A DNA stretch of 64,000 bases from positions 3,479,501-3,543,500 of the forward strand of contig NZ_CP150667.1 of the NCBI RefSeq assembly GCF_038024065.1. Reading direction: 5' to 3'. The notes beneath the pieces are model-generated. The model did no database searches, was not told the DNA's origin, and saw only the letters and a list, made by a program, of their open reading frames with translations. Source of the stretch: Polaribacter sejongensis. Lineage in GTDB: Bacteria > Bacteroidota > Bacteroidia > Flavobacteriales > Flavobacteriaceae. The position numbers were made by a program, and so were the translations under genes. Below are positions 1,828 through 47,309 of this stretch, in pieces. Every line of letters begins with the position of its first letter. The first letter of the stretch is position 1.

Positions 1828-2533
1828 AAGCCTCAATAAACTCTTCCACTTCAAAAAGTACTTTAAAATGCTTTAAAATTTTAGATTTCACCTCTTCTAT
1901 ATCTACTTTTCGGTTCAATTCAGCTTCCATAGAGGTTACTGCTTTTCCTTTTATTCCACACGGAATAATATTATCAAAATAACCCAAATTTACATTGGCA
2001 TTTAGTGCAAATCCATGCATGGTAACCCAGCGAGAAGAACGGATTCCCATAGCACAAATTTTACGTGCAAATGGTGTTCCTACATCTAGCCAAACTCCAG
2101 TTTCTCCAGGACTTCTTTCTGATTTTATACCATATTCTGCAATGGTTAAAATAATAGCTTCTTCTAAAAAGCGTAAGTATTTATGGATGTCTGTAAAGAA
2201 ATTTTCTAAATCTAAAATTGGGTAGCCAACAATTTGCCCAGGACCATGGTAGGTAATATCTCCACCACGATTTATCTTATAAAAAGTAGCTCCTTTTTCT
2301 GCTAACTGACTTTCATTCAGTAATAAATTACTTAGGTCTCCACTTTTTCCTAAGGTGTAAACATGTGGATGTTCTACAAATAAAAAGTAATTTTTTGTTG
2401 GGTTTGTATTCTCGTTTCTACGATTATCAATCTTAATGGCTACAATTTCTTGTAATAAGTCAGTTTGATAGTCCCAAGTCTCCTTGTAATCTTTTACAGA
2501 TAAGTCTTTTAATAGTATGTTTCTGTTCATCAT
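1826..2533 (-). CDS. lipB: Octanoyl-[ACP]:protein octanoyltransferase LipB
   Basis: Transfers octanoate from acyl carrier protein to the lipoyl domains of 2-oxoacid dehydrogenases and the glycine cleavage H protein, the first step of de novo lipoate cofactor assembly. The 235-residue protein has the family signature RGGDITYHGPGQ at about 89-100, the Lys-Ile-Cys-Ala stretch with the catalytic Lys158 (RKICAMGIR), and the acyl-thioester Cys192 in NIIPCGI. Both catalytic residues are intact. The reading frame opens with two Met codons; either could start translation. It is transcribed away from the metalloprotease gene, with only 60 bp between the two start codons. Confidence 0.95.
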   Translation of the reverse strand: MMNRNILLKDLSVKDYKETWDYQTDLLQEIVAIKIDNRRNENTNPTKNYFLFVEHPHVYTLGKSGDLSNLLLNESQLAEKGATFYKINRGGDITYHGPGQIVGYPILDLENFFTDIHKYLRFLEEAIILTIAEYGIKSERSPGETGVWLDVGTPFARKICAMGIRSSRWVTMHGFALNANVNLGYFDNIIPCGIKGKAVTSMEAELNRKVDIEEVKSKILKHFKVLFEVEEFIEA

Positions 2534-2541
2534 TGCGACTA

Positions 2542-2549
2542 CAAAGATA
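2542..2549 (-). promoter_or_regulatory. TAnnTTTG -7 box for lipB
   Basis: On the minus strand this reads TATCTTTG, matching the Bacteroidota -7 consensus TAnnTTTG. It ends 8 nt before the lipB start codon, implying a very short leader. No TTG -33 element is visible at the usual spacing. Confidence 0.45.
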
Positions 2550-2559
2550 ATTATTTCAT

Positions 2560-2567
2560 TATATTTG
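2560..2567 (+). promoter_or_regulatory. TAnnTTTG -7 box for the metalloprotease gene
   Basis: TATATTTG matches the Bacteroidota -7 consensus and lies 26 nt upstream of the ATG at 2594. The nearest TTG (2533-2535) is 24 nt away, slightly beyond the normal spacing. It faces the lipB promoter, so the two divergent promoters are practically back to back. Confidence 0.4.
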
Positions 2568-2593
2568 ATAACGATTTTATATAAATACTGTTT

Positions 2594-5500
2594 ATGAAAA
2601 CAAGATTATTGCTGTTATTTATTTTTGTTGGCTTCTTTTCTTCTATCGAAGTGATAAATGCTCAGACCTTTTTGAAGAAGATTGATAAAGACAATTTTTC
2701 AATTCAAGAAGATCAAATTTATTCTAAGAAGAATTTTCCAAAAGCATACAATCTAGTTTCTATAGATATAAATAACTTTAATACAGAATTAAAATCAAAA
2801 TCTAGTTCTAAATCGGTACAGAAAACCATACAATTACCGAATACTGATGGAGGTTTTTCTAATTTTGTTATCAATGAGACTTCAAATTTTGAAAACAAAT
2901 TATCAGAAAAATACTCTATGATAAAGTCGTATTCTGCTCAAGGAGTAGATGATCCTACTGCAGTAGCAAAAATTAGTATTGGTACAGACGGTTTTCATGC
3001 AGTTGTGTATTCTGGTGTAGAAAAAACATTATATATAGATCCTTATTCTAAGGATAAAAAATCTTTAATCGTCTACAAAAGAAGTGATTTAAATACAGAT
3101 AACGATAGTTTTACCTGTCATGTAGAAGAGGCTGCACGTATGGGTATTGCTAAAACTACTAGTTTTAAAAATGCACAAGATGGTAAACTAAGAACTTTTC
3201 GTTTGGCTTTAGTTTGTAGTGGAGAATACGCACAATTTCATTTAACAAATCAGAATATATCTGCTGCTGCTTCAGATGAAGTTAAAAAAGCTGCCGTACT
3301 TTCTGCAATGAATACGACCATGACAAGAGTTAATGGTATTTTTGAGAGAGACTTATCTGTAAGAATGACTATTGTTGGAGATAATGATAAAGTGGTTTTT
3401 TTAGATGCAGCCACAGATAATGTTACGGATGGAGATCCTGACACTATGCTTAATCAAGTACAAACTATTTGTGATACTGAAATAGGAAATGCAAATTATG
3501 ATATTGGACATATTTTTAGTACTGGTGGAGACGGTTTAGCAAGTGGAGGTGTAGTTTGTATTACAGGTCAGAAAGCACGTGGAGTAACGGGAAGAAGTGA
3601 ACCTATTGGTGATGCGTATGATATTGATTTTGTAGCGCATGAAATGGGACATCAATTTGGAGCAAATCACACACAGAGTAATAGTTGTAATATAAATAGT
3701 AGCACAGCAGTAGAGCCTGGTAGTGCTTCTACTATAATGGGGTATGCAGGTATTTGTATACCAAACGTACAGTCTAAAAGCGATGATTATTTTCATGCAG
3801 TTAGTATTGCAGAAATGTGGAATATTGTAAGTTCTTCTGCAAATTGTGCTGTGTTAACAGATACAAATAATAGTGCGCCAACAGCAAATGCAGGATTAGA
3901 TTATAGTATTCCAAAATCGACACCCTTTTTACTAAAAGGAGTTGCAACAGATGTAGATGGAACGGCTAGTTTAACCTATAATTGGGAGCAGACAGATAAT
4001 GAACCTGCAGCAACAATGCCTCCAGCTACAACAAGTTCTGTAGGACCAATGTTTAGATCTTTACCTTCTGCAATGAGTTCAGAAAGATACATGCCTGAAT
4101 TGGCAACGGTGGTAGCCGGTAGTACAGCATCAACTTGGGAAGTTGTGCCATCTGTAGCAAGAGATTTAAATTTTTCTTTTCTAGTGAGAGATAATCATGC
4201 AGGAGGAGGAAGTACTGCAAGAGATAATATGACAGTAACGGTAGAGGATGCAGAAGTTTTTACGGTTTCAGCTCCAAGTACAGCTGTTTCTTGGTTTGCA
4301 GACACGACACAAAATATAACATGGAATAAAGGAACAACTGATATTGCTCCAATAAATTGCCAAAATGTAACGATTAAATTATCTGTAGATGGTGGAATTA
4401 CGTTTCCTATTATTTTAAAAGAAAATACGCCCAATGATGGTTCTGAAAATATTGTAATACCAGAAAACCCAACTACATCTGCTAGAATTATGGTAGAAGC
4501 GGCAGACAATATTTTCTATAATGTAAATGCAACAAATTTTACAATAAATTCATCAGTTCCAACATTTGTAATGACAGATACAAGTGGAGATCAGTCTGTT
4601 TGTAATACCGGAAATCAGTCTGTAAGTTATATTTTAAATTTCGATTTTATAAACGGATTTTCAGAAAATGTGGCTCTTTCGGCTACAGGTCAACCGGAGG
4701 GAACAACAGTTAGTTTTAGTGCATCAACTATAAGCGCAGATGGTAATGTTAATATGACTGTAAGTGGTTTAAATGATGCCATTGAAAAACCTTACAAGAT
4801 TAATGTAGTAGGTAGTTCTACAAGTATTTCTAATAACATAGATGTTCAATTAAATATAACGACTTCTAGTTTTGATGCCTTAACGCTAACTTCTCCTGCC
4901 AATGATGCTGTTGAAGTAGATTTAAGTACAACCTTAAGTTGGGATGCAGATACCAATGCAAGTAATTACAACGTACAAGTAGCAACAGATACTGGTTTTA
5001 CACACTTAATTGTAAATGAAAATGTAACTTTAAATGAGTATTCTTTATCAGAACTTTCTGTAAATACCACTTATTTCTGGAGAGTAAAAGCTGAAAATAG
5101 TTGTGCAGAAGGTAGTTATTCAAATGTATTTGAATTTAAAACATTAACACCTGTTTATTGTGCTTCTAATTTTACAGATGATGTTATAGGGAAAGAATTT
5201 ATAACTAATGTAACATTTAATACCATTAATAATAATTCTGGCAATGCTGCTGTAAATGGATATGAAGATTTTACGGCTATAGAAACGAAAGTGAAAAATG
5301 GAGAAGATCATCAAGTTTCTGTAACTCTAAATACGGGAGGGTTTAAAGATCATGTATATGTATTTATAGATTGGAATCAAGATTTTATTTTTGATAAAAC
5401 AACGGAAAGGTATGATTTAGGAACAGAGTCTACTGATATAGGAACCAAAACATTTATGATTACAGTGCCAGGTGATGCCAAAGTTGGAAGCACAACAATG

Positions 5501-6316
5501 AGAGTTGTTATAGAGTATGATGATTCTACAGGAGGTTATGGAGATGGCCCTTGTAATGCAGATCATTTAACAGAATGGGGAGAAACAGAAGATTATACAA
5601 TTGTTGTTATAGATGTAAACAATGTTTCTGTGCAAACAACATCAGAAACTTGTGTAAATGAAAACGATGGTATTATTACGGTAGACGTATCTCAGACTTC
5701 TTTAGATTATAATGTAACATTATCAAGTTCTGCAAGTACTTCTACTTCCTCGATAGTTGGTTCTAGTAAAATATTTTCAGATTTAAGTCCGGGTATTTAT
5801 GAGGTTTGTGTAGAAACAGTTCAACAAGACTTTAGACAATGTTATGAAGTTGAAATTGTAGAGTCTCAGCCAATATCATTAAAAGCGAGTGCAAGTAAAA
5901 CATCAAAAATATATTCTTTTGCTATTGATGAGGGGACAGCTCCTTTTAGTGTATTCTTAAATAATAAGCTACTAAGAACTTCTAGTGAAAAGAGTTTTGA
6001 TATTGAGTTAAATGAAGGAGGCTTGTTAGAGGTAAAAACGGCGAAAGATTGTGAGGGTGTGTTTAAAACAACAATAGATGCTGTTATATTACTCCAAAAT
6101 CCAGTGGTAAATTCTATAGAATTATTACTTCCTTTAGGAATAGAAGGTGATCGTATAGAAACACTAATTTTTGATATAAATGGTAAATTAGTTTTTAAAC
6201 AAATGGTAAATGTTCAAGGTAATTCAATGTCCATTCCGTTTCAACAATTTGAAAAAGGAATTTATATTTTAAAATTACCAATTGCTGCAAAACCGATTAA
6301 AATATTAAAGAAATGA
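2594..6316 (+). CDS. Secreted reprolysin-like zinc metalloprotease with PKD/Fn3/GEVED domains and T9SS-type C-terminus
   Basis: A 1240-residue secreted protein. Residues 1-24 form a signal peptide ending INAQ. After a propeptide-like region, the metzincin zinc motif HEMGHQFGANH lies at 349-359 (His349, Glu350, His353, His359), followed by a Cys-rich loop and a plausible Met-turn (IMGYAG), as in M12B/reprolysin-like Bacteroidota peptidases. Downstream are a PKD/cadherin-like segment (about 425-475), an Fn3-like domain (about 763-852, ending TTYFWRVKAEN), a GEVED domain (about 854-1010, VFIDWNQD, EDYTI), and a C-terminal end resembling a T9SS sorting domain (FDINGKLV, GIYILKL). Probably exported by the Sec route and then across the outer membrane by T9SS to digest protein outside the cell. 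Its stop overlaps the next start (ATGA). Catalytic residues are intact; the substrate is unknown. Confidence 0.88.
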   Translation: MKTRLLLLFIFVGFFSSIEVINAQTFLKKIDKDNFSIQEDQIYSKKNFPKAYNLVSIDINNFNTELKSKSSSKSVQKTIQLPNTDGGFSNFVINETSNFENKLSEKYSMIKSYSAQGVDDPTAVAKISIGTDGFHAVVYSGVEKTLYIDPYSKDKKSLIVYKRSDLNTDNDSFTCHVEEAARMGIAKTTSFKNAQDGKLRTFRLALVCSGEYAQFHLTNQNISAAASDEVKKAAVLSAMNTTMTRVNGIFERDLSVRMTIVGDNDKVVFLDAATDNVTDGDPDTMLNQVQTICDTEIGNANYDIGHIFSTGGDGLASGGVVCITGQKARGVTGRSEPIGDAYDIDFVAHEMGHQFGANHTQSNSCNINSSTAVEPGSASTIMGYAGICIPNVQSKSDDYFHAVSIAEMWNIVSSSANCAVLTDTNNSAPTANAGLDYSIPKSTPFLLKGVATDVDGTASLTYNWEQTDNEPAATMPPATTSSVGPMFRSLPSAMSSERYMPELATVVAGSTASTWEVVPSVARDLNFSFLVRDNHAGGGSTARDNMTVTVEDAEVFTVSAPSTAVSWFADTTQNITWNKGTTDIAPINCQNVTIKLSVDGGITFPIILKENTPNDGSENIVIPENPTTSARIMVEAADNIFYNVNATNFTINSSVPTFVMTDTSGDQSVCNTGNQSVSYILNFDFINGFSENVALSATGQPEGTTVSFSASTISADGNVNMTVSGLNDAIEKPYKINVVGSSTSISNNIDVQLNITTSSFDALTLTSPANDAVEVDLSTTLSWDADTNASNYNVQVATDTGFTHLIVNENVTLNEYSLSELSVNTTYFWRVKAENSCAEGSYSNVFEFKTLTPVYCASNFTDDVIGKEFITNVTFNTINNNSGNAAVNGYEDFTAIETKVKNGEDHQVSVTLNTGGFKDHVYVFIDWNQDFIFDKTTERYDLGTESTDIGTKTFMITVPGDAKVGSTTMRVVIEYDDSTGGYGDGPCNADHLTEWGETEDYTIVVIDVNNVSVQTTSETCVNENDGIITVDVSQTSLDYNVTLSSSASTSTSSIVGSSKIFSDLSPGIYEVCVETVQQDFRQCYEVEIVESQPISLKASASKTSKIYSFAIDEGTAPFSVFLNNKLLRTSSEKSFDIELNEGGLLEVKTAKDCEGVFKTTIDAVILLQNPVVNSIELLLPLGIEGDRIETLIFDINGKLVFKQMVNVQGNSMSIPFQQFEKGIYILKLPIAAKPIKILKK

Positions 6317-6993
6317 GAAAAGCGATAATTATTTTAAATTTATGTACTATCTGCTTTTTAGCTGTAAGTTGTTCTTCTAAGGATGATGAAAATAAAGCGC
6401 CGAGTATTGTTCAATTAGAGTATCCTACAAAAGACCTTTTGTGTATAGATCATACAATTTCTTTTAACTGGAGTGATGCTATAGACTTAGAAAATGATGC
6501 TATCGAGTATACTATTATCATAGCCAAAGACAGGCAGTTAATAGATGTTGTAGAAAACAGAACTGTTAGCGCAAGTGAATTAACAGTAACTTTAGAGAAG
6601 TCTGTAGCGTATTATTGGCAAGTAAATGCAATAGACGTAGATAATAACCAAGAAAGTAATTCTGAAATATTTTCTTTTTATACAAAAGGAGATGGGGTTA
6701 CAAATTATGCGCCTTTTATGGCTGATTTACAATCGCCAGAAAATAATGGAAACGTTACTGAAGGAACTGTAGACCTAGTTTGGGAAGCATCAGATATTAA
6801 TACCGCAGATACACTAACATATGAATTATTTTTTGGTGAAGATGCTACTTTAATTTCTATTGATAATACTCTTACGGTAAAGTCATATTCGGTTTCTGTG
6901 GTTTCAGGAAAAACATATTCATGGCAAGTGAATGTAACCGATAATGTTGGGGCAAAATCTATTGGGCAAATTTTTACGTTTACGGTAGATTAA
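6313..6993 (+). CDS. Surface-type lipoprotein with two Fn3-like domains
   Basis: A 226-residue lipoprotein: signal peptide MRKAIIILNLCTICFLAVSC with lipidated Cys20. The residues after it, SSKDDE, resemble the Lys-(Asp/Glu) lipoprotein export signal known from Capnocytophaga and Bacteroides, which suggests exposure on the outer face of the outer membrane. Two Fn3-like units follow (about 35-125 and 135-226), each with the SYSW/YYWQV(N/K)A motif. The start codon overlaps the stop of the metalloprotease gene by 4 nt, so translation is probably coupled and the two products may work together, for example as protease and surface partner. No enzyme motif is seen. Confidence 0.75.
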   Translation: MRKAIIILNLCTICFLAVSCSSKDDENKAPSIVQLEYPTKDLLCIDHTISFNWSDAIDLENDAIEYTIIIAKDRQLIDVVENRTVSASELTVTLEKSVAYYWQVNAIDVDNNQESNSEIFSFYTKGDGVTNYAPFMADLQSPENNGNVTEGTVDLVWEASDINTADTLTYELFFGEDATLISIDNTLTVKSYSVSVVSGKTYSWQVNVTDNVGAKSIGQIFTFTVD

Positions 6994-7013
6994 TAAAGTA
7001 TTCTTATTAAATT

Positions 7014-7052
7014 AAAAAAGCCACATCAAAAAATTGATGTGGCTTTTTTTTA
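7014..7052. terminator. Bidirectional terminator between lipoprotein gene and pruA
   Basis: A perfect 10-bp stem (GCCACATCAA at 7020-7029 with TTGATGTGGC at 7034-7043) and an AAAA loop, flanked by an A-run on the left and a T-run on the right. It separates two convergent genes. Confidence 0.9.
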
Positions 7053-7069
7053 TAAAAAGATATTTTTTC

Positions 7070-8695
7070 TTATCCTAAGAAAGGGTATTTATAATCTGTA
7101 GGAGAAACCAATGTTTCTTTTATCAATCTAACAGAAGTCCAACGTAATAAGTTTTGTGCAGAACCCGCTTTATCATTTGTACCAGAAGCTCTTGCTCCTC
7201 CAAATGGTTGCTGACCAACAACAGCTCCAGATGGCTTATCGTTAATATAAAAGTTTCCAGCAGCGTTTTCTAATGCTTTAGAAGCTTTTTCTACAATATA
7301 TCTATCTGTAGAAAAGATAGCACCTGTTAATCCGTATTCTGTAGATTCATCTACTAATTTTAAGGAAGCTTCCCAATCTGCATCTTCGTATACATAAACC
7401 GTCATTACTGGGCCAAATAACTCAGTTGTCATAGTTGCATATTTTGGAGATTGACTAACAATTACAGTAGGCTCAATAAAGTAACCAACAGATTTGTCAT
7501 GGTTTCCACCAATAATTATTTCTGCATCTTTATCTTTTTTAGCCGCCTCAATATAGCTAGTAATTTTATCAAAAGAACCTTCGTGAATAACTGCATTTAT
7601 AAAGTTTGAAGTATCTTCTGGAGATCCCATTTTTAATTCGCTTGCTTGTGCAATTAAATGTTTCTTAACCTCTGGCCAAAGTGACGCAGGAATGTAAGAA
7701 CGAGAGGCAGCAGAACATTTTTGACCTTGGTATTCGAAAGCACCTCTTGTCATTGCAGTTGCAACTTGTAAAGGATTTGACGAGTTGTGAACCCAGATAA
7801 AATCTTTTCCACCTGTTTCACCAACAATTCTTGGATACGTTTTATACGTATGGATATTAGTACCAATTTGCTTCCATAATTCTTTAAAAACATGTGTAGA
7901 ACCTGTAAAGTGTAATCCAGAGAAATCTGGAGAAGCTAATACAGTATCAGAAATCATAACTGGATCTCCGTAAACAACATTTATAACACCATCTGGCAAA
8001 CCAGCTTCTTTAAATAAATCTACAATTACTTGTGCAGAATAAGCTTGATGATCAGAAGGTTTCCAAACAACAACATTACCCATTAATGCAGCTGACGCAG
8101 GTAAATTTGCAGCAATAGATGTAAAGTTAAAAGGAGAAATAGCGTAGATAAATCCTTCTAAAGGTCTGTACTCAACCCTGTTCCATACTCCAGGAGAAGA
8201 TGTTGGCTGATCTTTAAAAATATCCGTCATGTATTCTACGTTAAAACGGAAGAAGTCAATCATTTCACAAGCAGCATCAATTTCTGCTTGATACACGTTT
8301 TTAGATTGCGCAATCATCGTTGCTGCATTCATTCTTGCTCTATAAGGACCTGCTAATAATTCTGCAGCCTTTAAGAAAATTGCAGCACGTTCCATCCAAC
8401 TTACGCTAGACCAAGCTTCTCTAGCAGCTAAAGCTGTAGAAATAGCAGCATCTACATGCGTTTTATCTGCTGTATGGTATTGCCCAACCACATGTTTATG
8501 ATCATGAGGAGGAGTAATATTTTTAGTATTTCCTGTTCTAACTTCTTCACCATTAATATGCATTGGCACATCAATATTGCTGTTATACATAGCTTTATAA
8601 GTAGCTAATAATTCTTCCTTTTCAGGAGAGCCCGGAGCGTACCCTTTTACAGGTTCGTTTACTGCTTTCGGAACATTATAAAATCCTCTTGACAT
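7070..8695 (-). CDS. pruA: L-glutamate gamma-semialdehyde (1-pyrroline-5-carboxylate) dehydrogenase
   Basis: NAD-dependent aldehyde dehydrogenase that oxidises glutamate semialdehyde, made from proline, to glutamate. At 541 residues it has the length of the stand-alone P5C dehydrogenases of Bacteroidota and eukaryotes, without a fused proline dehydrogenase domain. Diagnostic features are the N-terminal NEPVKGYAPGSPEK extension, ISPFNFTSIAANLP at 187-199, the general-base Glu293 in VGETGGKDF, and the nucleophile Cys327 in GQKCSAASR, followed by PFGGARASGTNDKAG near the C-terminus. All catalytic residues are intact. It is monocistronic here, with no putA-like gene next to it. Identification is secure. 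Confidence 0.95.
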   Translation of the reverse strand: MSRGFYNVPKAVNEPVKGYAPGSPEKEELLATYKAMYNSNIDVPMHINGEEVRTGNTKNITPPHDHKHVVGQYHTADKTHVDAAISTALAAREAWSSVSWMERAAIFLKAAELLAGPYRARMNAATMIAQSKNVYQAEIDAACEMIDFFRFNVEYMTDIFKDQPTSSPGVWNRVEYRPLEGFIYAISPFNFTSIAANLPASAALMGNVVVWKPSDHQAYSAQVIVDLFKEAGLPDGVINVVYGDPVMISDTVLASPDFSGLHFTGSTHVFKELWKQIGTNIHTYKTYPRIVGETGGKDFIWVHNSSNPLQVATAMTRGAFEYQGQKCSAASRSYIPASLWPEVKKHLIAQASELKMGSPEDTSNFINAVIHEGSFDKITSYIEAAKKDKDAEIIIGGNHDKSVGYFIEPTVIVSQSPKYATMTTELFGPVMTVYVYEDADWEASLKLVDESTEYGLTGAIFSTDRYIVEKASKALENAAGNFYINDKPSGAVVGQQPFGGARASGTNDKAGSAQNLLRWTSVRLIKETLVSPTDYKYPFLG

Positions 8696-12473: not shown

Positions 12474-13547
12474 CTAAAATAATGCAAAAGCAATAAAGGA
12501 AATAAAAACAACGCCTAGTGAAGTAAAAATCATAAATAAAACATTTGCAAATACGTATTTAAATAATGTTTTAATAAAGCTTTGTTCGTAGAAGTTTTTC
12601 ATTGCTAAAAATAAATACAATAAAAAAAGCAATAAAAATAAACCTGTATAACTGTCTGTTTCTATAAAGATGTTTAGAATATAAAAAATTGAAAGTAGCA
12701 AGAAAAAGAGGGTTTGCGTATGGAAAACAAATATTAAATGTTCTACATAGGTAAACTTACTTCGTATGTAAATAAATTTTAAAAAGAGTGTAAATAAGGG
12801 TAATAGTATAAATAACGCAATTGAAGAGTAAGAAAGAAATTGCTTTTTTAACTTTTTGGAAACTGTGCTATCTGTATAAATAGTATTTATTAACTGAGAC
12901 CTAGAATACCAAAATTTATTTGAAAAACTTTTATCTATTTTTAAACTATCTAAAGCATCATCTACATACAGGTTAGGGTGCTGTTTTTGAAACTTCAGCA
13001 TTTTAACTATTTTTATTTCTTTGCCACCAACTTTAAGGAATGGCATTTTAGAAATAGTATCTTTAATAGCGGTTAATGTGGAATCTGTTTCTTTTAAATT
13101 TAAGATAGAATCCTTTTTTTGATCTTCTTTTAAATTGAGGTTTATAGCATTAAAAATATCCGTATTGTTCGGGTTTTTTCCATTTCTAAAATTATTAAAA
13201 TCGTTATAGCTATCTGTAATACCTATAATTAAAAAGAAGATAACAGAAACAGTTAAGTAGAATTTAAAAGGGTTAGAATAGCGTTGTCTTTTCCCTGCAA
13301 TGTAATTTTTAGAAACTTCTCCAGGTCTTATTAAAAGTGGGATTAATGTTTTCCAAAATTTAGCATCAAAATTAAACAAGCCATTAAATAAATGATGAAT
13401 AAAGCTGTAAAAAGTAATTCTATTTCCTTTATTCTCCTGGCCACAATCTGGACAAAATTTTTCATGTCCACTAAAAGGATGCCCACAGTTTAAACATGCA
13501 GGGTCTTTTATAATAATTGTTTTCTTTTTAGATTTGGTTAGTTTAAT
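12474..13547 (-). CDS. DUF3667 membrane protein with N-terminal zinc ribbon, apparently starting at a non-canonical codon
   Basis: DUF3667 family membrane protein. A TTG at 13379 would give 301 residues, but the same frame continues upstream and encodes a complete zinc ribbon: CLNCGHPFSGHEKFCPDCGQ, the usual N-terminus of this family, then RITFYSFIHHLFNG leading into LFNFDAKFWKT. Between the in-frame stop inside apaG and the ribbon there is no ATG, GTG or TTG; the best candidate start is ATT at 13547, overlapping the apaG stop by 10 nt and giving 357 residues. Three to four hydrophobic segments occupy the C-terminal half (for example SSIALFILLPLFTLFLKF), with a soluble loop (about 135-240) between the first and second. 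Function unknown; it probably forms an operon with apaG. The start, not the family, is the uncertain point. Confidence 0.72.
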   Translation of the reverse strand: MKLTKSKKKTIIIKDPACLNCGHPFSGHEKFCPDCGQENKGNRITFYSFIHHLFNGLFNFDAKFWKTLIPLLIRPGEVSKNYIAGKRQRYSNPFKFYLTVSVIFFLIIGITDSYNDFNNFRNGKNPNNTDIFNAINLNLKEDQKKDSILNLKETDSTLTAIKDTISKMPFLKVGGKEIKIVKMLKFQKQHPNLYVDDALDSLKIDKSFSNKFWYSRSQLINTIYTDSTVSKKLKKQFLSYSSIALFILLPLFTLFLKFIYIRSKFTYVEHLIFVFHTQTLFFLLLSIFYILNIFIETDSYTGLFLLLFLLYLFLAMKNFYEQSFIKTLFKYVFANVLFMIFTSLGVVFISFIAFALF

Positions 13548-14089: not shown

Positions 14090-14179
14090 GTGTAATACAT
14101 TTTCTTATTATGGATGCTCTTCTATCTCAAATTGTGTAAAGTTTACTCATTTACACTATTAATTACACATGTTTTACAC
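14090..14179. promoter_or_regulatory. Cluster of GTGTAAW half-sites upstream of the PepSY-like array
   Basis: In the 401-bp gap between apaG and the array there are five GTGTAAA/T words: 14090-14096 and 14134-14140 on the plus strand, and 14150-14156, 14162-14168 and 14173-14179 in reverse. Two of them form the palindrome GTGTAAA-9 nt-TTTACAC. They lie about 150-235 bp before the first gene, a distance usual for binding sites of sigma-54 enhancer proteins. Nothing else is recognised in this gap apart from a poor sigma-54-like string (TGGCAT ... TTTCT) at 14268-14283. Confidence 0.4.
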
Positions 14180-14325
14180 GGATTAATTAAAGTGGTATAA
14201 AAGTGTTTAAATATTAAGTAATTGTTTTTCAGTGTTTTACTAGTGATTGTTGCAAGGTGATTCTACATGGCATATTTATTTCTATATACTAATCAGAAAT
14301 AATAACAACCTTAAAAACTTATATC

Positions 14326-14655
14326 ATGAAAAAATTAATTTTTACAGTAGCAGTAGCAATTTTATCAAGTGGAGTTTCAATCTCAGCAGCAAACATTAAC
14401 AATAGTAATCATTCTGATGAAGTAATTGTAATGACAATTAATGAAGACTTTAAAGAAGTTGCTTTAGAAGATTTGCCAGAAGCAGTAGGTAATGCAATTT
14501 TAAAAGATTATGCAACGGCTGTTGTTGGTAAAGCATATGTAAACGAAAGTGAGCAATATAAAATTGAACTTACTATTGATGAAACTGAAAGTGTAGTTTA
14601 TGTAGACAAAGAAGGTAATTGGTTAAAAGAGGGTGATGTTGTAGTAACTGAATAA
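14326..14655 (+). CDS. PepSY-like exported protein, array copy 1
   Basis: A 109-residue protein with a Sec signal peptide (cleavage after about residue 21, SISA|ANIN). The mature part has the PepSY-like (PF11396, DUF2874) pattern: an ED-LPEAV helix, a YATAVVGKAY strand, SEQYKIELT and VVYVDKEGNWL. It is the most divergent of the first six copies in its leader (MKKLIFTVAVAIL) and follows the only long upstream region, so the array promoter probably lies before it. Predicted periplasmic. The function of PepSY-like proteins is not established; inhibition of proteases or sensing at the envelope is speculation. Family call good, role unknown. Confidence 0.8.
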   Translation: MKKLIFTVAVAILSSGVSISAANINNSNHSDEVIVMTINEDFKEVALEDLPEAVGNAILKDYATAVVGKAYVNESEQYKIELTIDETESVVYVDKEGNWLKEGDVVVTE

Positions 14656-14749
14656 GATTACAATATTGTTACAAAGTAGTTACAGGTATAAGGATCTTTA
14701 ATTACAAATTTTAAAATATCAAATTATAAATAATTAAAAACATACAATC

Positions 14750-15079
14750 ATGAGAAAATTAATTTTAACAGTAACCGTAGCACTTTTAACAAGTGGAGTA
14801 TCAGTATTTGCAGCAAACAATATCAATATTAACAATGCAGATGAAATTGTTGTTGTAGTAACCAATGATGATTTTAAAGAAATTTCAGCAAAGGAATTAC
14901 CAGAAGCAGTTTCTAATGCAATTATGAAAAACTTTCCATCAGCTACAGTTAACAAACTATATGTAAATGGTAGCGAGCAATATAAAATTGATCTTACTAT
15001 TGATGAAACTGACGCTGTAGTTTATGCAGACAAAGATGGAAATTGGATAGAAGAAGGTGATGTTGTAGTAAAGGAGTAA
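14750..15079 (+). CDS. PepSY-like exported protein, array copy 2
   Basis: A 109-residue paralogue with signal peptide MRKLILTVTVALLTSGVSVFA followed by ANNININ. The mature domain carries KELPEAVSNAIMKNFPSAT, VNGSEQYKIDLT and YADKDGNWIEEGD. It has the same layout as copy 1, but its leader is of the type shared by copies 2-7. The 94-bp gap before it contains the spacer word GGATCTTTAATTAC that recurs between other copies; no separate promoter box is visible. Confidence 0.8.
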   Translation: MRKLILTVTVALLTSGVSVFAANNININNADEIVVVVTNDDFKEISAKELPEAVSNAIMKNFPSATVNKLYVNGSEQYKIDLTIDETDAVVYADKDGNWIEEGDVVVKE

Positions 15080-15181
15080 AGTTATAATAGTCTATAAAAG
15101 TAAAGTAGTTGTAGGTCTTAGGATCTTTAGTTTATAAATAGTAAATCTTAAAGTAATTAATAATTTAAAAAACATATAACC

Positions 15182-15514
15182 ATGAGAAAATTAGTTTTAA
15201 CAGTAACCGTAGCACTTTTAACAAGTGGAGTATCAGTATTTGCAGCCAACAATATCAATACAAACAATGTAGATGAAATTGTAGTTGTAGTAACCAATGA
15301 CGATTTTAAAGAAATTAGCGTAAAAGAATTACCAGCAGCGGTTTCTAGTGCAATTGTAAAAGATTTTGGAACAGCAACAGCTATAAAAGCATATGTAAAC
15401 GGAAGTGAGCAATATAAATTTGAACTTACTTTAAATGGAGAAGAAAAGGTAGTTTATGCAGATAAAGAAGGGAATTGGTTAGAAGAAGCCGATGTTGTAA
15501 CAGCGGAACAATAG
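15182..15514 (+). CDS. PepSY-like exported protein, array copy 3
   Basis: A 110-residue paralogue. The mature part is almost the same as that of copy 4 (KELPAAVSSAIVKDFGTATA, YKFELTLNGEEKVVYADKEG), while the signal peptide and its DNA match copy 2. This mosaic pattern suggests unequal crossing-over or gene conversion between neighbours. It ends with the TAEQ tail found only in copies 3 and 4. Confidence 0.8.
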   Translation: MRKLVLTVTVALLTSGVSVFAANNINTNNVDEIVVVVTNDDFKEISVKELPAAVSSAIVKDFGTATAIKAYVNGSEQYKFELTLNGEEKVVYADKEGNWLEEADVVTAEQ

Positions 15515-15592
15515 ACTGTATTCGTCTAGAAAAATATTCAATCATAAAATATTCAATCATAAAATAATTAATAATATAAAAAATATAAAATC

Positions 15593-15925
15593 ATGAGAAA
15601 ATTAGTTTTAACATTAACCGTAGCAGTTTTAACAAGTGGAGCAACAGTATTTGCAGCAAACGATATCAATACCAATAATGTAGACGAAATTGTAGTTGTA
15701 GTAAGTAATGACGATTTTAAAGAAATTAGCGTAAAAGAATTACCAGCAGCGGTTTCTAGCGCAATTGTAAAAGATTTTGGAACAGCAACAGCTATTAAAG
15801 CATATGTAAACGGAAGTGAGCAATATAAATTTGAACTTACTTTAGATGGAGAAGAAAAGGTAGTTTATGCAGATAAAGAAGGAAATTGGTTAGAAGAAGC
15901 CGATGTTGTAACAGGGGAACAATAG
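15593..15925 (+). CDS. PepSY-like exported protein, array copy 4
   Basis: A 110-residue paralogue. The leader MRKLVLTLTVAVLTSGATVFA is shared with copies 5-7, while the mature domain is nearly identical to copy 3, differing at only a few residues (such as TLDG for TLNG). The spacer before it contains a short internal direct duplication of ATAAAATATTCAATC. Predicted periplasmic. Confidence 0.8.
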   Translation: MRKLVLTLTVAVLTSGATVFAANDINTNNVDEIVVVVSNDDFKEISVKELPAAVSSAIVKDFGTATAIKAYVNGSEQYKFELTLDGEEKVVYADKEGNWLEEADVVTGEQ

Positions 15926-15986
15926 ACTGTATTCGTCTAGAAAATATTCAATCATAAAATAATTAATAATATAAAAATATAAAATC

Positions 15987-16316
15987 ATGAGAAAATTAGT
16001 TTTAACATTAACCGTAGCAGCTTTAACAAGTGGAGCAACAGTATTTGCAGCAAACGATATCAATACTAACAATGTAGACGAAATTGTAGTTGTAGTAAGT
16101 AATGACGATTTTAAAGAAATTACATTAGAAGAATTACCAGAAGCAGTTTCTAACGCAGTCTTAAAAGATTTTCCAACAGCTACTGTTGTAAAAGCGTACG
16201 TAAACGGCAGTGAGCAATATAAAATAGAATTGACTACTGATGGAACTGAAAGCGTTGTTTACGCTGATAAAGATGGAAATTGGTTAGAAGAATCTGATGT
16301 TGTAGTAGTAGAGTAA
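15987..16316 (+). CDS. PepSY-like exported protein, array copy 5
   Basis: A 109-residue paralogue forming a near-identical pair with copy 6: LEELPEAVSNAVLKDFPTAT, YKIELTTDGTESVVYADKDG, then EESDVVVVE. Only 61 bp separate it from copy 4, the shortest spacer in the array. The signal peptide is the copy 4-7 type, with mature sequence starting AND. Confidence 0.8.
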   Translation: MRKLVLTLTVAALTSGATVFAANDINTNNVDEIVVVVSNDDFKEITLEELPEAVSNAVLKDFPTATVVKAYVNGSEQYKIELTTDGTESVVYADKDGNWLEESDVVVVE

Positions 16317-16419
16317 AGTTCGATTCATAAAAAAAAAGTAACACAATTATAGGCCTAAGGGATCTTTAATTATCACACATTCAATCATAAAATAATTAAA
16401 AATATAAAAATATAAAATC

Positions 16420-16749
16420 ATGAGAAAATTAGTTTTAACATTAACCGTAGCAGTTTTAACAAGTGGAGCAACAGTATTTGCAGCAAACGATATCAACACC
16501 AATAATGTAGACGAAATTGTAGTTGTAGTAAGCAATGAAGATTTTAAAGAAATTACATTAGAAGAATTACCAGAAGCAGTTTCTAACGCAATTTTAAAAG
16601 ATTTTCCAACAGCTACTGTTGTAAAAGCTTATGTAAACGGCAGTGAGCAGTATAAAATAGAATTGACTACTGATGGAACTGAAAGTGTAGTTTACGCTGA
16701 TAAAGATGGAAATTGGTTAGAAGAATCTGATGTTGTAGTAGTAGAGTAA
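16420..16749 (+). CDS. PepSY-like exported protein, array copy 6
   Basis: A 109-residue paralogue differing from copy 5 by very few residues (for example NEDF for NDDF and NAIL for NAVL). The preceding and following spacers are also near-identical to each other (TAACACAATTATAGG, GGGATCTTTAATTATC), so gene plus spacer was duplicated as one unit. Confidence 0.8.
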   Translation: MRKLVLTLTVAVLTSGATVFAANDINTNNVDEIVVVVSNEDFKEITLEELPEAVSNAILKDFPTATVVKAYVNGSEQYKIELTTDGTESVVYADKDGNWLEESDVVVVE

Positions 16750-16842
16750 TTCTGATTCATAAAAAAAAGTAACACAATTATAGGTCTAAGGGATCTTTAA
16801 TTATCACACATTCAATCATAAAATAATCAAAAATATAAAATC

Positions 16843-17205
16843 ATGAGAAAATTAGTTTTAACATTAACTGTAGCAGTTTTAACAAGTGGAGCAACAGTAT
16901 TTGCAGCAAACGATATCAACACCAACAATGTAGACGAAATTGTGATGGTAGCAACCAACGACGATTTTAAAGAAATTGAAATAAAGGAATTACCAGAAGC
17001 GGTTTCTACCTCAATTTCAAGAGATTTTTCTACAGCCACTGTTGTTAAAGCGTATCTAAATGATAGTGAGCAATACAAGATTGAACTTACTGCAGATGGA
17101 ACAAAAGGTGTAGTTTATTTAGATAAAGAAGGTAACTGGTTAAAAGGTACAGACATTATAACAGCAAAAGAAGAAGGGGATTTTAGTGAAGAAAAAACTG
17201 AGTAG
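16843..17205 (+). CDS. PepSY-like exported protein, array copy 7 (C-terminally extended)
   Basis: The last and longest paralogue, 120 residues. The leader is identical in type to copies 4-6, but the mature part has diverged (IKELPEAVSTSISRDFSTAT, YLNDSEQYKIELTADGTKGV) and the protein gains an acidic tail (EEGDFSEEKTE). It is followed by a terminator-like hairpin, which closes the array before the response regulator gene. Confidence 0.8.
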   Translation: MRKLVLTLTVAVLTSGATVFAANDINTNNVDEIVMVATNDDFKEIEIKELPEAVSTSISRDFSTATVVKAYLNDSEQYKIELTADGTKGVVYLDKEGNWLKGTDIITAKEEGDFSEEKTE

Positions 17206-17248
17206 TAAAAAGGTTTAAATATTTTTTAAACTCAATTTTTCGGAAGAG

Positions 17249-17282
17249 AAAGACATTTTTTAATTAAAATGTCTTTTTTTTT
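17249..17282 (+). terminator. Terminator of the PepSY-like array
   Basis: Stem AAAGACATTTT/AAAATGTCTTT followed by a run of T, 44 nt past the last array stop codon. Confidence 0.75.
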
Positions 17283-17312
17283 GATTACAATCAATTTATC
17301 TTGATATTTTTG
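17281..17312 (+). promoter_or_regulatory. Promoter of the NtrC-type regulator gene
   Basis: TTG (17281-17283), 21-nt spacer, TATTTTTG (17305-17312): a full match to the Bacteroidota TTG/TAnnTTTG pattern, ending 19 nt before the ATG. The regulator therefore has its own promoter, downstream of the array terminator. Confidence 0.6.
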
Positions 17313-17331
17313 TAACAAATGTATAAGCTTT

Positions 17332-18690
17332 ATGAAGGAGATTTTATTAGTTGAAGATGATGTAGCATTTTCAGAAATGTTGAAGCAGTTTCTTAAACGA
17401 CATAAGTATGTTGTAGAGGTGAGTTATAATATAAAAAATGCTTTACAACAGTTAGAAAAGAAGAATTACGATTTAGTTTTTACAGATTTACGTCTTCCTG
17501 ATGGTGATGGAATTGCCTTGTTAAAGCAAATAAAACTTAGTAAAAAGGCTACTCCGGTAGTTTTAATGACTAGTTATGCAGAGGTTTCTACAGCTGTACA
17601 AGCAATGAAACAAGGAGCTTTTGATTATATTTCGAAACCTTTTAACCCAACTGAGGTCTTAGAAGTTATTAGCAATGCTTTAGAAGAAAAAGCAGATGAT
17701 GCTGCCGAACATCAACAAAAACAGCAAAAAGAGGCGAAGCAAGAAAAAGAAAATAGTAATACAGATACTGGTTTTGTAAAAGGTATTAGTAGTTCTTCTA
17801 AAGTTCTTGATGAGTATATCTCTCTTGTAGCTCCTATTAATATGTCTGTGCTGGTTACAGGTGAAAGTGGTACAGGAAAAGAGGTGGTTGCAAAAACAAT
17901 TCATTTACAGAGTCCTAGGCATAACAAACCATTTATAGCGGTAGATTGCGGTGCAATACCTAGGGAAATAGCTTCTAGTGAGTTTTTCGGACATAAAAAA
18001 GGTTCTTTTACAGGTGCTAATGAGGATAAGATTGGGCATTTTGAATCTGCAAATGGAGGGACTCTTTTTTTAGATGAAGTAGGTAATTTGTCTTATGAAA
18101 ATCAAATACAACTGTTACGTGCTTTGCAAGAAAGAAGAATTAAACCGGTTGGAAGTAGTAAAGAAATTAATGTTGATATTCGTTTGATTACCGCAACAAA
18201 TGAAGATTTGCTTTTGGCGGTTGAAAAAGGTGATTTTAGAGAAGATTTGTACCATCGTTTAAATGAATTCTCTATAAAAGTCCCTAATTTAAAAGATAGA
18301 AAAGACGATTTAATCTTATATGCAGATTTCTTTTTAAACAAGGCAAACAAACAGTTGAATAAATCTGTAATTGGTTTTTCTAAAAAAGTATTAACTATTT
18401 TTCAGAATTATCAGTGGCCTGGTAACTTAAGAGAATTGTCTAATGTGATTAAAAGAGCTACTTTATTAACAAAAACAGAAGTTATTGATGTAGATGTTTT
18501 ACCAAGTGAATTAACTAAAGTAAAAGAAAACACCGTTTCATCAAATAAATTTTCTACAAAAGAAAATGAAAAAGTACTTATTATTAGTGCGCTAGAAGAA
18601 GCAGGAAATAATAAGACTCAAGCAGCAAAATTATTAAATGTTACTAGAAAAACACTTTATAATAAAATGAAAGAGTATGACCTTAATTAA
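17332..18690 (+). CDS. Sigma-54-dependent NtrC-family response regulator
   Basis: A 452-residue transcription activator with three parts: a receiver domain (1-120; phospho-acceptor Asp52 in FTDLRLPDGDG, Thr80 and Lys102), an AAA+ sigma-54 interaction domain (about 148-385; Walker A GESGTGKE at 177-184, sigma-54 contact loop GSFTGA at 224-229 in place of the usual GAFTGA, Walker B TLFLDE) and a C-terminal Fis-type helix-turn-helix (NNKTQAAKLLNVTRKTLYNKM). Such proteins bind upstream palindromes and drive sigma-54 RNA polymerase. A Gln/Lys/Glu-rich linker follows the receiver. The convergent hybrid kinase gene overlaps its end and is the likely partner; the adjacent array is a plausible target. 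Confidence 0.92.
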   Translation: MKEILLVEDDVAFSEMLKQFLKRHKYVVEVSYNIKNALQQLEKKNYDLVFTDLRLPDGDGIALLKQIKLSKKATPVVLMTSYAEVSTAVQAMKQGAFDYISKPFNPTEVLEVISNALEEKADDAAEHQQKQQKEAKQEKENSNTDTGFVKGISSSSKVLDEYISLVAPINMSVLVTGESGTGKEVVAKTIHLQSPRHNKPFIAVDCGAIPREIASSEFFGHKKGSFTGANEDKIGHFESANGGTLFLDEVGNLSYENQIQLLRALQERRIKPVGSSKEINVDIRLITATNEDLLLAVEKGDFREDLYHRLNEFSIKVPNLKDRKDDLILYADFFLNKANKQLNKSVIGFSKKVLTIFQNYQWPGNLRELSNVIKRATLLTKTEVIDVDVLPSELTKVKENTVSSNKFSTKENEKVLIISALEEAGNNKTQAAKLLNVTRKTLYNKMKEYDLN

Positions 18691-21112
18691 GGTACTCTTC
18701 TAAAGTTTTTATAAAATTATTTAACTGTTTCTCAAAATCAATAAATTTGGTTTTATCAATAGTTGTTGTAGTTTCAAATACTTCTAAATAAGGAATTACG
18801 ACTTTTACCTCTAGCTGTTTAAACATACTAAGCATCTTGTGGCTTATTTCATTTAGCGTCTTAATATCAGCCTCTTCTTTGGCTTTTATTAGTGTTAAGC
18901 TATTCTTTTTAGTGTCTTCTAAAAAAATTTGTAAGGTGTTTTTTATGGAAGCAATATCATTACCTAAAAAAGATTGTAAAGATTTGATACTAAAACCTAC
19001 AGTTGCTTTTTCTGTACTTTCTACTACTTTGGTTTTAATTGGTATACTACTCGACTTAAAAAAACGATGTAAAACATCTTGAAGCTGGTTGGAGTTAAAT
19101 GGTTTTATCAACACTTCTGCAAAGCCAATTTTTAAATACTCCTCTCTAGAAATATTTGCACGTCCGGTCATGGCAATAATCGGTTGATTTTTATAAAGTT
19201 TATGATTTTTAAGGATTTCCATAAAATGAATTCCATTCATCTTTGGAAGTTGAATATCTGTGATTACAAAATCATATGAAATTTCATCTATAGCATTAAT
19301 CGCATTTTGTGCATTCTCAAATGTGTATACTTCAATATTAAATTGTTTTAAAAAATCATTTAAAAGTAGGCGGACAGAAGCATCATCTTCTACAACAACA
19401 GCGGTTAAGTTAAAAGCGGTAGTTGTCTTTTTAATTTCTTTAGTTTTTATAATTGGTTTGTCAGACAATTTTACCGGTATTTTTAAGGTAAAAGTACTTC
19501 CTATATTTAGTTTGCTATCTAGGGTTAGTTTTCCGCCTAAAAGTTCAACTAGTTTTTTAGAGATGGTTAACCCCAAACCAAAACCTTTTAAATTGTTGTC
19601 GCTTGCATTTTCTGCCTGATTAAAGGCATTAAAAATAGTTGCTTTTTTGTCTTTACTAATCCCGATTCCAGTATCTATAATTAAAATTTCTAAGGTGCTC
19701 TTATGATCTTGTTGCTTTATAGAACTTTGAATAGTAATGGTGCCTTCGTTTGTAAATTTACATGCATTTACAATTAAATTATATAAAATCTGCTTAATTC
19801 GAAATGGATCACTAATAATAAGACTGTTAATAGAATCGTCTTGTTTTACCACAAAGCGTACGGGTTTGTCTTGAATGATGTTTTTCGAATTTAGAATAAT
19901 CTCATTAATATAATTCTCTAGGTTAAAAGGAATAGATTCTATAGCGATATGGCCATTTTCTAGTTTAGAGAATTCTAAAAGATCATTTACTAACTGCCCC
20001 ATATATGTTGATGCGCTTCGTATATGGTCTAAATAATTTTTGTCTTTTGTGTTCTCTGTCGATTTTTGAAGTAATTCACTAAAACCAGAAATAGTACTTA
20101 GCGGAGTTCTTAAATCATGGCTTACCATAGAAATTAACTGCTCTCTACTTTTTAAAAGTGACTGTGTGGTGCTATTCGCCTTTTCTAATTGTAAACGATA
20201 GCGCTGGGTTTTCCAGAAATCACTTAAAATAATTATAGAAAAAATAATAATGATGATAAAACTAATGCCGGCAGCAAATAAGATAATTTTTCTACTCTGG
20301 TTTAATGTTGCTTCTCGTTGCTTATCCATATTAGTAGTATAGAAAAGGATGTCTTTTTCAAGGTTTTCTAACAACTCTTGTAGCTTTCTAGAAATTGTTA
20401 AATCATTATTTATAAGTTCATTTTGTTTTTTTCTTAGATAAAAACGCTGGCTATTGTTTTTGTTTTGAGCCTCTTTTAGCATTTTTCTAGAAATAGAAAC
20501 TAACGAATCTATTTGCTTTTGTTCAATATTATTAATAGAATCTTTTGGTACATATTGGTTTAGAGCCAGTGCAAAATTTTCTAATTTAGAACTCGTTCCG
20601 TTATCAAAATATAAAGGATTTTTAATAAAATCATTTATGGTAATTTTTAAAAGTAAAGAATCTATAGAACCTAATTTATTTATGGCTTCAGTTATAGGTT
20701 TGTTAGAATCATAGTTGGTATTTAGATCTTTTAAATCTATAATGTTTTTCAATTTTTTATCAATAATTAATTTTATACTATCTAAAATAAACTCTTGAGA
20801 ATTGTTAGTAACAATAAGGCTCAGTGAGTCAATTTTTGATACTAATTTTTTATTTTCTTCTAAGTATTCATTAAATTTTGTTGGAGAATTTAACTGTAGT
20901 GCAGCTCTAGCGATACTTTCATTTTTGTATATGTGAGCTATTAAAGTTCCTGTTCTAACAATTACGTTTCTGTCGGAGATATCTTGTTTTTGTAATTGTG
21001 TAAATGTTTTTAGTTCAGAAAGCACTAAAAAACCAGCAATAGTTGCTAAAAGACCAAGTATGATGTAGCCTATTATAACTTTAAAAGTAATATTCTTTTT
21101 TAATGATTTCAT
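18683..21112 (-). CDS. Hybrid sensor histidine kinase with receiver and HPt domains
   Basis: An 809-residue inner-membrane kinase. Transmembrane segments at about 11-32 and 276-297 bracket a largely helical sensor domain of some 240 residues (CHASE3-like in layout, not identified). Then come a DHp domain (His332 in SMVSHDLRTPLS), an HATPase domain (N-box NLIVNACKF, G-boxes DTGIGIS and KGFGLGLTISK), a receiver (Asp619 in ITDIQLPKMNG, Lys670) and an HPt-like domain with His758 in EISHKML. This is a full multistep phosphorelay in one chain, able to pass phosphate to a separate regulator. The gene faces the NtrC-type regulator, with the two stop codons inside one palindrome. Pairing with that regulator is inferred. 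Confidence 0.92.
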   Translation of the reverse strand: MKSLKKNITFKVIIGYIILGLLATIAGFLVLSELKTFTQLQKQDISDRNVIVRTGTLIAHIYKNESIARAALQLNSPTKFNEYLEENKKLVSKIDSLSLIVTNNSQEFILDSIKLIIDKKLKNIIDLKDLNTNYDSNKPITEAINKLGSIDSLLLKITINDFIKNPLYFDNGTSSKLENFALALNQYVPKDSINNIEQKQIDSLVSISRKMLKEAQNKNNSQRFYLRKKQNELINNDLTISRKLQELLENLEKDILFYTTNMDKQREATLNQSRKIILFAAGISFIIIIIFSIIILSDFWKTQRYRLQLEKANSTTQSLLKSREQLISMVSHDLRTPLSTISGFSELLQKSTENTKDKNYLDHIRSASTYMGQLVNDLLEFSKLENGHIAIESIPFNLENYINEIILNSKNIIQDKPVRFVVKQDDSINSLIISDPFRIKQILYNLIVNACKFTNEGTITIQSSIKQQDHKSTLEILIIDTGIGISKDKKATIFNAFNQAENASDNNLKGFGLGLTISKKLVELLGGKLTLDSKLNIGSTFTLKIPVKLSDKPIIKTKEIKKTTTAFNLTAVVVEDDASVRLLLNDFLKQFNIEVYTFENAQNAINAIDEISYDFVITDIQLPKMNGIHFMEILKNHKLYKNQPIIAMTGRANISREEYLKIGFAEVLIKPFNSNQLQDVLHRFFKSSSIPIKTKVVESTEKATVGFSIKSLQSFLGNDIASIKNTLQIFLEDTKKNSLTLIKAKEEADIKTLNEISHKMLSMFKQLEVKVVIPYLEVFETTTTIDKTKFIDFEKQLNNFIKTLEEYLN

Positions 21113-46913: not shown

Positions 46914-47309
46914 TAAGAAAATTTTATAAAAAGTGTTGAAGTAGTCATTATTAACCATGCACCTGTTATAAGACACCATTATATTCAATAAGTCACAATT
47001 ATTTATTTTAAATAAAATTAATTACTTTCTTTTAGGTATTTTATGTTTTAGTTTTTGGTGTTTTTTATTTCACCACCTTATTTTAAGTAGAAACACTTAA
47101 TAATAGAGGGCTGTTTGAGAGCTATTTTTTTTATAATTAGTGCTTTTTAATAAGTTTTTTTTATATAATTATTTAAAAATTTTATCTAAAAGCAGAGTTG
47201 CTTGTGACTCTAAATTTATAATAGGTGATAATGATGATTCCATTTTAGCGAATTTTAATGCTGAAATAAGTTCAGAATGTTAAGTTTTACTATTTCTTTG
47301 AATTTGTAT

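Follow-up and report, generated by a model that had tools for sequence, protein, structure and literature searches.

A conserved regulator-kinase pair and a sigma-54-like promoter predicted to control a tandem array of PepSY-like exported proteins in Polaribacter sejongensis

The stretch of Polaribacter sejongensis DNA analyzed here, 64,000 nucleotides in full and referred to below as the window, contains seven tandem open reading frames (ORFs) of 109 to 120 aa that span positions 14326-17205 in the same orientation, bearing out the initial annotation, which had read them as seven head-to-tail genes for PepSY-like exported proteins. Candidate regulatory DNA precedes this array, and the genes of a response regulator and, in convergent orientation, a hybrid histidine kinase follow it. 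The features, with the evidence for each in brackets, are:

14134..14148, plus strand: candidate upstream activating palindrome GTGTAAAGTTTACTC, one mismatch to GTGTAAnnnTTACAC (motif enrichment in relatives, shuffles)
14268..14282, plus strand: sigma-54-like -24/-12 element TGGCATATTTATTTC (pattern match, conservation)
14326..14655, plus strand: PepSY-like exported protein, copy 1, 109 aa (ORF list, Pfam, protein alignment)
14750..15079, plus strand: PepSY-like exported protein, copy 2 (ORF list, Pfam, protein alignment)
15182..15514, plus strand: PepSY-like exported protein, copy 3 (ORF list, protein alignment)
15593..15925, plus strand: PepSY-like exported protein, copy 4 (ORF list, protein alignment)
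15987..16316, plus strand: PepSY-like exported protein, copy 5 (ORF list, Pfam, protein alignment)
16420..16749, plus strand: PepSY-like exported protein, copy 6 (ORF list, Pfam, alignment, structure model)
16843..17205, plus strand: PepSY-like exported protein, copy 7, 120 aa, with a longer tail (ORF list, Pfam, alignment)
17243..17282, plus strand: terminator-like stem-loop with T-run (minimum free energy versus shuffles)
17332..18690, plus strand: NtrC-type response regulator with receiver D52, GSFTGA loop and Fis-type HTH (ORF list, Pfam, alignment)
18683..21112, minus strand: hybrid histidine kinase with helical sensor, HisKA H332, HATPase, receiver D619 and HPt-like H758 (ORF list, Pfam, model, alignment)

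The stem-loop with its T-run parts the array from the regulator gene. Positions 17206-17290, in which it lies, have a minimum free energy of -21.1 kcal/mol (z = -4.48, with none of 200 shuffles as low), and a simple terminator scan did not list it. Within the array, a block like AGGTCTAAGGGATCTTTAAT is repeated in four of the six intergenic gaps (14656-14749, 15080-15181, 16317-16419, and 16750-16842). A structured RNA was considered for this conserved inter-copy block and rejected, as the five of six gaps that were folded gave nonsignificant z-scores of -1.36 to 1.03. Elsewhere, the window holds two very long minus-strand ORFs, at 38733-46988 (2751 codons) and 47389-60795 (4468 codons).

The array proteins are predicted to be small (∼10 kDa), acidic, and exported, the latter judged by eye from a Sec-type N-terminus. 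Copies 2 to 7 share 53 to 66% protein identity with copy 1, and the DNA identity of the copies to a 300-nt reference copy is 68 to 93%. Since copies 3 and 4 as well as copies 5 and 6 are nearly identical over 303 nt (95% and 96%, respectively), the array appears to have grown partly by recent duplications, and dN/dS values of 0.08 to 0.61 among the copies indicate purifying selection. The assignment to PF11396 made in the initial annotation holds in part. Profile and fold comparison place the proteins in the BLIP/PepSY-like fold of this family, but the Pfam matches are weak, comprising five of the seven proteins at E-values of 3.6e-5 to 0.02, all under the curated cut-off (best score 24.4 bits versus 28.3), and no match for the other two at E up to 1. 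The Pfam PepSY domain matched none of the seven at the same limit. The structure model of copy 6 is predicted well over approximately residues 41 to 102, and each array protein comprises one domain of ∼65 residues. In this they differ from BVU2987 (3due; PF11396/DUF2874), a periplasmic protein of BLIP/PepSY-like fold in which the domain occurs as a tandem repeat (PMC2954215). ZraP/Spy-type Pfam families are absent from the listed array-protein matches at E up to 1. ZraP, an enterobacterial protein considered below, belongs to a different protein family.

The composition of these proteins bears on the possibility, which we consider unlikely, that their ligand is a metal ion or a small peptide and that the circuit responds to metals or antimicrobial peptides. 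All seven mature proteins have a pI of 4.05 to 4.22 (with the cleavage point placed by eye), 106 of 124 relatives have a pI <5 over their last 85 residues, and the PDB titles of two relatives describe them as calcium-binding or calcium-regulated. However, these titles are the depositors' names, no metal ligand set was identified in the array proteins, and cysteine is absent from all seven mature proteins and present within the last 85 residues of only 6 of the 124 relatives.

Codon usage suggests that the array is strongly expressed. Using weights from the ORFs of a ribosomal protein cluster, five of the seven copies take ranks 1 to 5 in codon adaptation among the 39 non-overlapping window ORFs of ≥100 aa, the remaining two ranking 16 and 19, in an index that is noisy for genes as short as these. 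It is from this result that the massive output of array proteins envisaged in the initial annotation draws what support it has.

The regulator shows the complete NtrC-type anatomy, its Pfam domains Response_reg, Sigma54_activat, and HTH_8 providing a receiver, an AAA+ domain with a GAFTGA-type loop, and a Fis-type HTH. The loop reads GSFTGA in 66 of 69 regulators and GAFTGA in the other three, and an rpoN gene was found in the same genome. While these domains agree with the sigma-54-type regulator of the initial annotation, the promoter of its own that it had been credited with does not stand out: sigma-70-type promoter matches number 21, compared to a mean of 23.9 in shuffles. Such promoters, together with simple terminators around the array, were rejected as candidates for not exceeding chance.

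The convergent kinase contains HisKA, HATPase_c, and Response_reg domains. As for the HPt domain ascribed to it initially, Pfam did not report one, but the HPt-like histidine H758 is kept in 69 of 70 aligned kinases (two of them from the same locus, L039). H332 and D619 of the kinase and D52 of the regulator are invariant in their alignments. In its structure model, the sensor forms an extended bundle of helices (pLDDT 81.5), for which Foldseek returned no PDB match at E 0.001 or better; by sequence, the PDB gave a single weak match (3va9, 0.0019). Locus L039 has tandem hybrid kinases, at 2501-4954 and 5067-7544, beside one regulator and two array copies.

Upstream of the array, the palindrome and the sigma-54-like element had both been suspected by eye ahead of a gapped-word count in 81 sequences upstream of the first array gene, which returned GTGTAAnnnTTACAC and TGGCA-n6-TTTC among the top words; the other top words were DUF4301 coding sequence. 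The palindrome extends to AAAAGTGTGTAAnnnTTACACACTTTT, an enhancer-palindrome form, and mostly sits 106 to 123 bp upstream of the element, the form of which is TGGCAYn5TTTC. In the window, TGGCATATTTATTTC lies 119 bp past the palindrome and 58 bp before the first array start codon, and further half-site-like repeats, seen by eye, follow the palindrome to ∼14180.

Counting in the array upstreams of 68 loci plus the window, with a loose pattern for the element at ≤110 bp from the start and 30 dinucleotide-preserving shuffles, we found an exact palindrome in 26 of 69 and one with at most one mismatch in 42 (shuffle means, 0 and 0.17), albeit in the same set of related genomes on which the palindrome had been defined. 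The element was present in 56 of 69 (shuffle mean, 1.6) and the combination of both in 37 (shuffle mean, 0). Among 45 further named loci, 24 have the palindrome, 37 the element, and 23 both. The distance between the two is 106 to 110 or 118 to 123 bp in 36 of 37 loci and 99 bp in the remaining one, giving two clusters about one helical turn apart, as expected for short-distance looping. These clusters follow lineage, with 22 of 24 loci that have a DUF4301 gene at 99 to 110 bp and 12 of 13 without it at 118 to 123 bp, so the pattern may reflect few events. A related element, often TGGTATCATATTTTC, directly precedes 27 of 63 downstream copies, none of them in the window. In other families, inspection by eye revealed an apparent drift of the palindrome, for example to GTGTAGAGTTTCTCTACAC in L282, and sigma-54-like elements in L271 and L272.

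To what extent does the arrangement recur? A profile built from the seven array proteins matched in 79 of 249 genomes of the family, the own genome included, while the regulator search gave 77 matches at 1e-120 or better, one per genome. The co-occurrence search in flavobacterial genomes proposed in the initial annotation thus yields 72 of the 249 genomes with both, 7 with the array protein only, 5 with the regulator only, and 165 with neither (Fisher p = 8e-48, ancestry ignored). We inspected 80 regions, representing 77 of the 78 other matching genomes plus three second sites; outside this set is G247, with a weak match inside a 299-aa ORF and no regulator. Array, regulator, and convergent kinase occur in window order in 68 of these 77 genomes. 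A regulator of >50% identity is found in 68 of the 80 regions and missing in 12, and all 68 have the array upstream on the regulator strand and the kinase convergent, within 50 bp in 65 cases. These 68 loci have one (32 loci), two (22), three (9), four (4), or five (1) array copies. With 32 single-copy loci, a general dosage need for seven copies, as the initial annotation had assumed, is unsupported.

Of 97 genomes in the genus, 20 encode the array protein; the 19 besides our own all have the regulator in the fetched stretch, and one of them attains seven copies. Polaribacter sp. DS7-9, the closest relative among the named ones, carries three array copies (L154) and shares three window flanking genes, and the regulator and kinase are found at 53 of 57 named loci. 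At the class level, 395 genomes were searched; 54 give a match of 1e-5 or better, and 47 of these belong to other families. Nineteen of these 47 loci, mostly those with better scores, were fetched; here, a regulator relative (45 to 51% identity) adjoins the array protein in 14, including 13 with a kinase match. The kinase directly follows the regulator in 12 of them, with an intervening ORF in L280. Four of the 19 have no nearby regulator, and in L284 it lies several kb off.

Conserved neighborhoods of this type might merely reflect inherited synteny, with the array under an ordinary promoter. Indeed, in 57 of the 80 regions, and in 53 of the 68 with a regulator, the gene immediately before the array encodes a DUF4301 protein, and some of the shared gene order may thus have been inherited in a larger block. 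However, this gene is absent from that position in the window and in the 19 class loci, and the trio occurs without it in 15 of the 68 regions; the larger block is thus widespread in the family, and what persists is the trio. Moreover, comparison of the 80 regions with four proteins flanking the array in the window (ApaG, a T9SS plug, NqrA, and the product of 12474-13379) gave no match next to the array. Since the regulatory DNA is also enriched, persists where array and regulator are separated, and is absent from two genomes that have no regulator (see below), we regard synteny alone as very improbable. The DUF4301 gene itself (PF14134, ∼513 aa; e.g., L032:3471-5009, on the same strand as the array) may be linked to the system or may be inherited synteny.

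Genomes in which the array and the two-component genes lie apart with no shared regulation had been put forward in the initial annotation as evidence against their pairing. In both G050 and G073 the genes are apart, yet the two elements are kept: in G050, with the array and the regulator-kinase pair on different contigs, a palindrome with two mismatches lies 109 bp from the element; in G073, where ∼246 kb separate them, one with a single mismatch lies 106 bp away. Conversely, in G086 and G176, in which the genome search found no regulator match, the array protein lies beside DUF4301 and has neither palindrome nor element, although these are only two cases and their array proteins are divergent. 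A palindrome within 5 of 18 mismatches is absent in 7 of the 12 regions without the regulator as compared to 14 of the 68 with it, and 10 of these 68 have no promoter element. The second sites in G094 and G184 have the promoter element and a poorer palindrome, that in G177 the promoter element only, and G030, a fragmented assembly, has an exact palindrome and no promoter match. Four of the five regulator-only genomes (L113, L114, L116, and L117) have no convincing array protein beside the regulator; L116 has a weak match (E 0.0048) ∼3.8 kb away, and L117 retains the kinase.

The own genome contains 24 palindrome-like sites compared to 10 in a reversed control, and the only one of the 24 paired with an element at array-type spacing is that of the array itself; a further pair, at 2931402, has a 31-bp gap. 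Across the 249 genomes, the palindrome-plus-promoter pattern gave 45 matches compared to 7 for the reversed control, and the window site, owing to its palindrome mismatch, falls outside the pattern. Judged by coordinates, 33 of the 45 lie within or close to array loci, including two that read one palindrome a second time, and the other 12 lie elsewhere, one of them in G089, where there is no array protein. As a separate observation, TGGYAYn5TTTC occurs 85 times in the own genome (G000:C1) versus 24 times in the reversed control, an excess that may point to a wider sigma-54 regulon. Likewise, L064:5509, between array and regulator, and L035:4306, ∼750 bp upstream of the array, each have a palindrome and promoter element with no array-like ORF directly after, possibly marking a small RNA or a lost copy.

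Sequence thus gives good support to the initial proposal of control of the array by the kinase-regulator pair: the trio is conserved, as are palindrome and element, which are kept even where array and regulator lie apart. The circuit looks real, conserved, and apparently dedicated to the array.

Two described systems resemble this one in anatomy, with no homology implied. The first is DbfQRS of Vibrio cholerae. Its periplasmic protein DbfQ consists of one PepSY domain, binds the sensor of DbfS with a Kd of 30 nM, and is inferred to turn it toward phosphatase activity; the system is activated by outer membrane perturbation, and similar modules were found in several phyla (PMC12714742, published December 2025). 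In the window and 68 of the 80 regions, as in DbfQRS, the genes of a kinase and a response regulator adjoin that of a small PepSY-type protein with Sec-dependent export, which is predicted here. However, DbfQ has a PepSY domain proper, surveyed by IPR025711, as opposed to the PF11396 matches of the window proteins. Two copies of the PepSY protein are described in one case, compared to up to seven here, and the window differs further in its NtrC-type regulator, phosphorelay kinase, and separate sigma-54-like array promoter. The terms Bacteroid, NtrC, and sigma54 are absent from the main text of PMC12714742.

The second is the sigma-54 envelope-stress system ZraPSR of enterobacteria, in which zraP, encoding a periplasmic chaperone, is expressed from a sigma-54 promoter under ZraR (PMC4987338), a regulator with a very small regulon (PMC7657598). 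As predicted from sequence, the window system would resemble ZraPSR in having a sigma-54-dependent response regulator, a kinase, and a small periplasmic protein with a sigma-54-type promoter before its gene. The two differ in that zraSR has its own divergent sigma-54 promoter (PMC4987338, PMC7657598) and that the window kinase is hybrid and convergent. Among Bacteroidota, PG0717 of Porphyromonas gingivalis is a DUF2874 protein two locus numbers from the PG0719-PG0720 (Hae) kinase-regulator pair; unlike the window proteins, it is a four-domain lipoprotein beside a classical two-component pair, and the parts of PMC3764172 used here report no control of PG0717 by PG0719-PG0720. PepSY is absent from the main text of a 2025 survey of sigma-54 regulons (PMC12316311). 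The literature searched, outside which most subscription journals fall, contained no description of the Bacteroidota system. The initial impression of an undescribed system therefore stands for the Bacteroidota version, while the kind of module, a PepSY protein with a two-component system, is published (PMC12714742), as is ZraPSR (PMC4987338). What looks novel is the other PepSY-like family, the NtrC-type regulator, the phosphorelay kinase, and the range of one to seven copies.

Taken as a whole, our best explanation is a dedicated envelope-sensing circuit with kinase feedback, to which we assign a probability of roughly 55%. The kinase, with its helical periplasmic sensor, would pass phosphate from H332 via D619 and the HPt histidine H758 to D52 of the regulator. 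The phosphorylated regulator would then bind the GTGTAAnnnTTACAC palindrome, contact sigma-54 polymerase at the TGGCAY-TTTC element ∼106 to 123 bp away, and strongly activate the array. By analogy, the exported PepSY-like proteins would fill the periplasm and bind partners there; those left free would dampen the kinase, as DbfQ and ZraP do, and damage that occupies them would keep the circuit on. The regulatory half, sigma-54 control of the array driven by the regulator, is very probable; for the feedback half, in which free array proteins dampen the kinase, we see the chances as evenly balanced. We also put forward, tentatively and at less than even odds, a class-wide sigma-54 envelope homeostat in which a phosphorelay chiefly targets an expandable array of one to seven copies, its proteins being both output and titratable kinase inhibitor and copy number setting threshold and gain.

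The feedback half competes with the idea that the array proteins are effectors only, that is, a bulk periplasmic chaperone or enzyme inhibitor that protects the envelope with no action on the kinase. Top codon adaptation of five copies, purifying selection, and the inhibitory role proposed for the fold family (PMC2954215) all suit such a function, which a single copy in 32 of 68 loci hardly favors. Divergence also bears on this point: array-protein distances track the kinase sensor best, with a rho of 0.59 compared to 0.33 to 0.50 for the other folded domains in the full set, and 0.50 compared to at most 0.36 in a set of the 32 single-copy loci plus the seven-copy window. Yet a sensor piece length-matched to the array domain shows no excess over the kinase receiver (0.485 versus 0.500, full set), such that the comparison lends weak, suggestive support to a contact between array protein and sensor. 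On balance, we consider a pure effector role a genuine contender, though a somewhat doubtful one.

The circuit with kinase feedback would carry the DbfQRS principle into Bacteroidota, where it is built on another protein family and another type of regulator, and the variation in array copy number would offer a natural series for feedback gain. More immediately, a protein family without settled function is here assigned a specific putative regulator, operator, and promoter, making the function of the array testable with one palindrome, one promoter, and one array.
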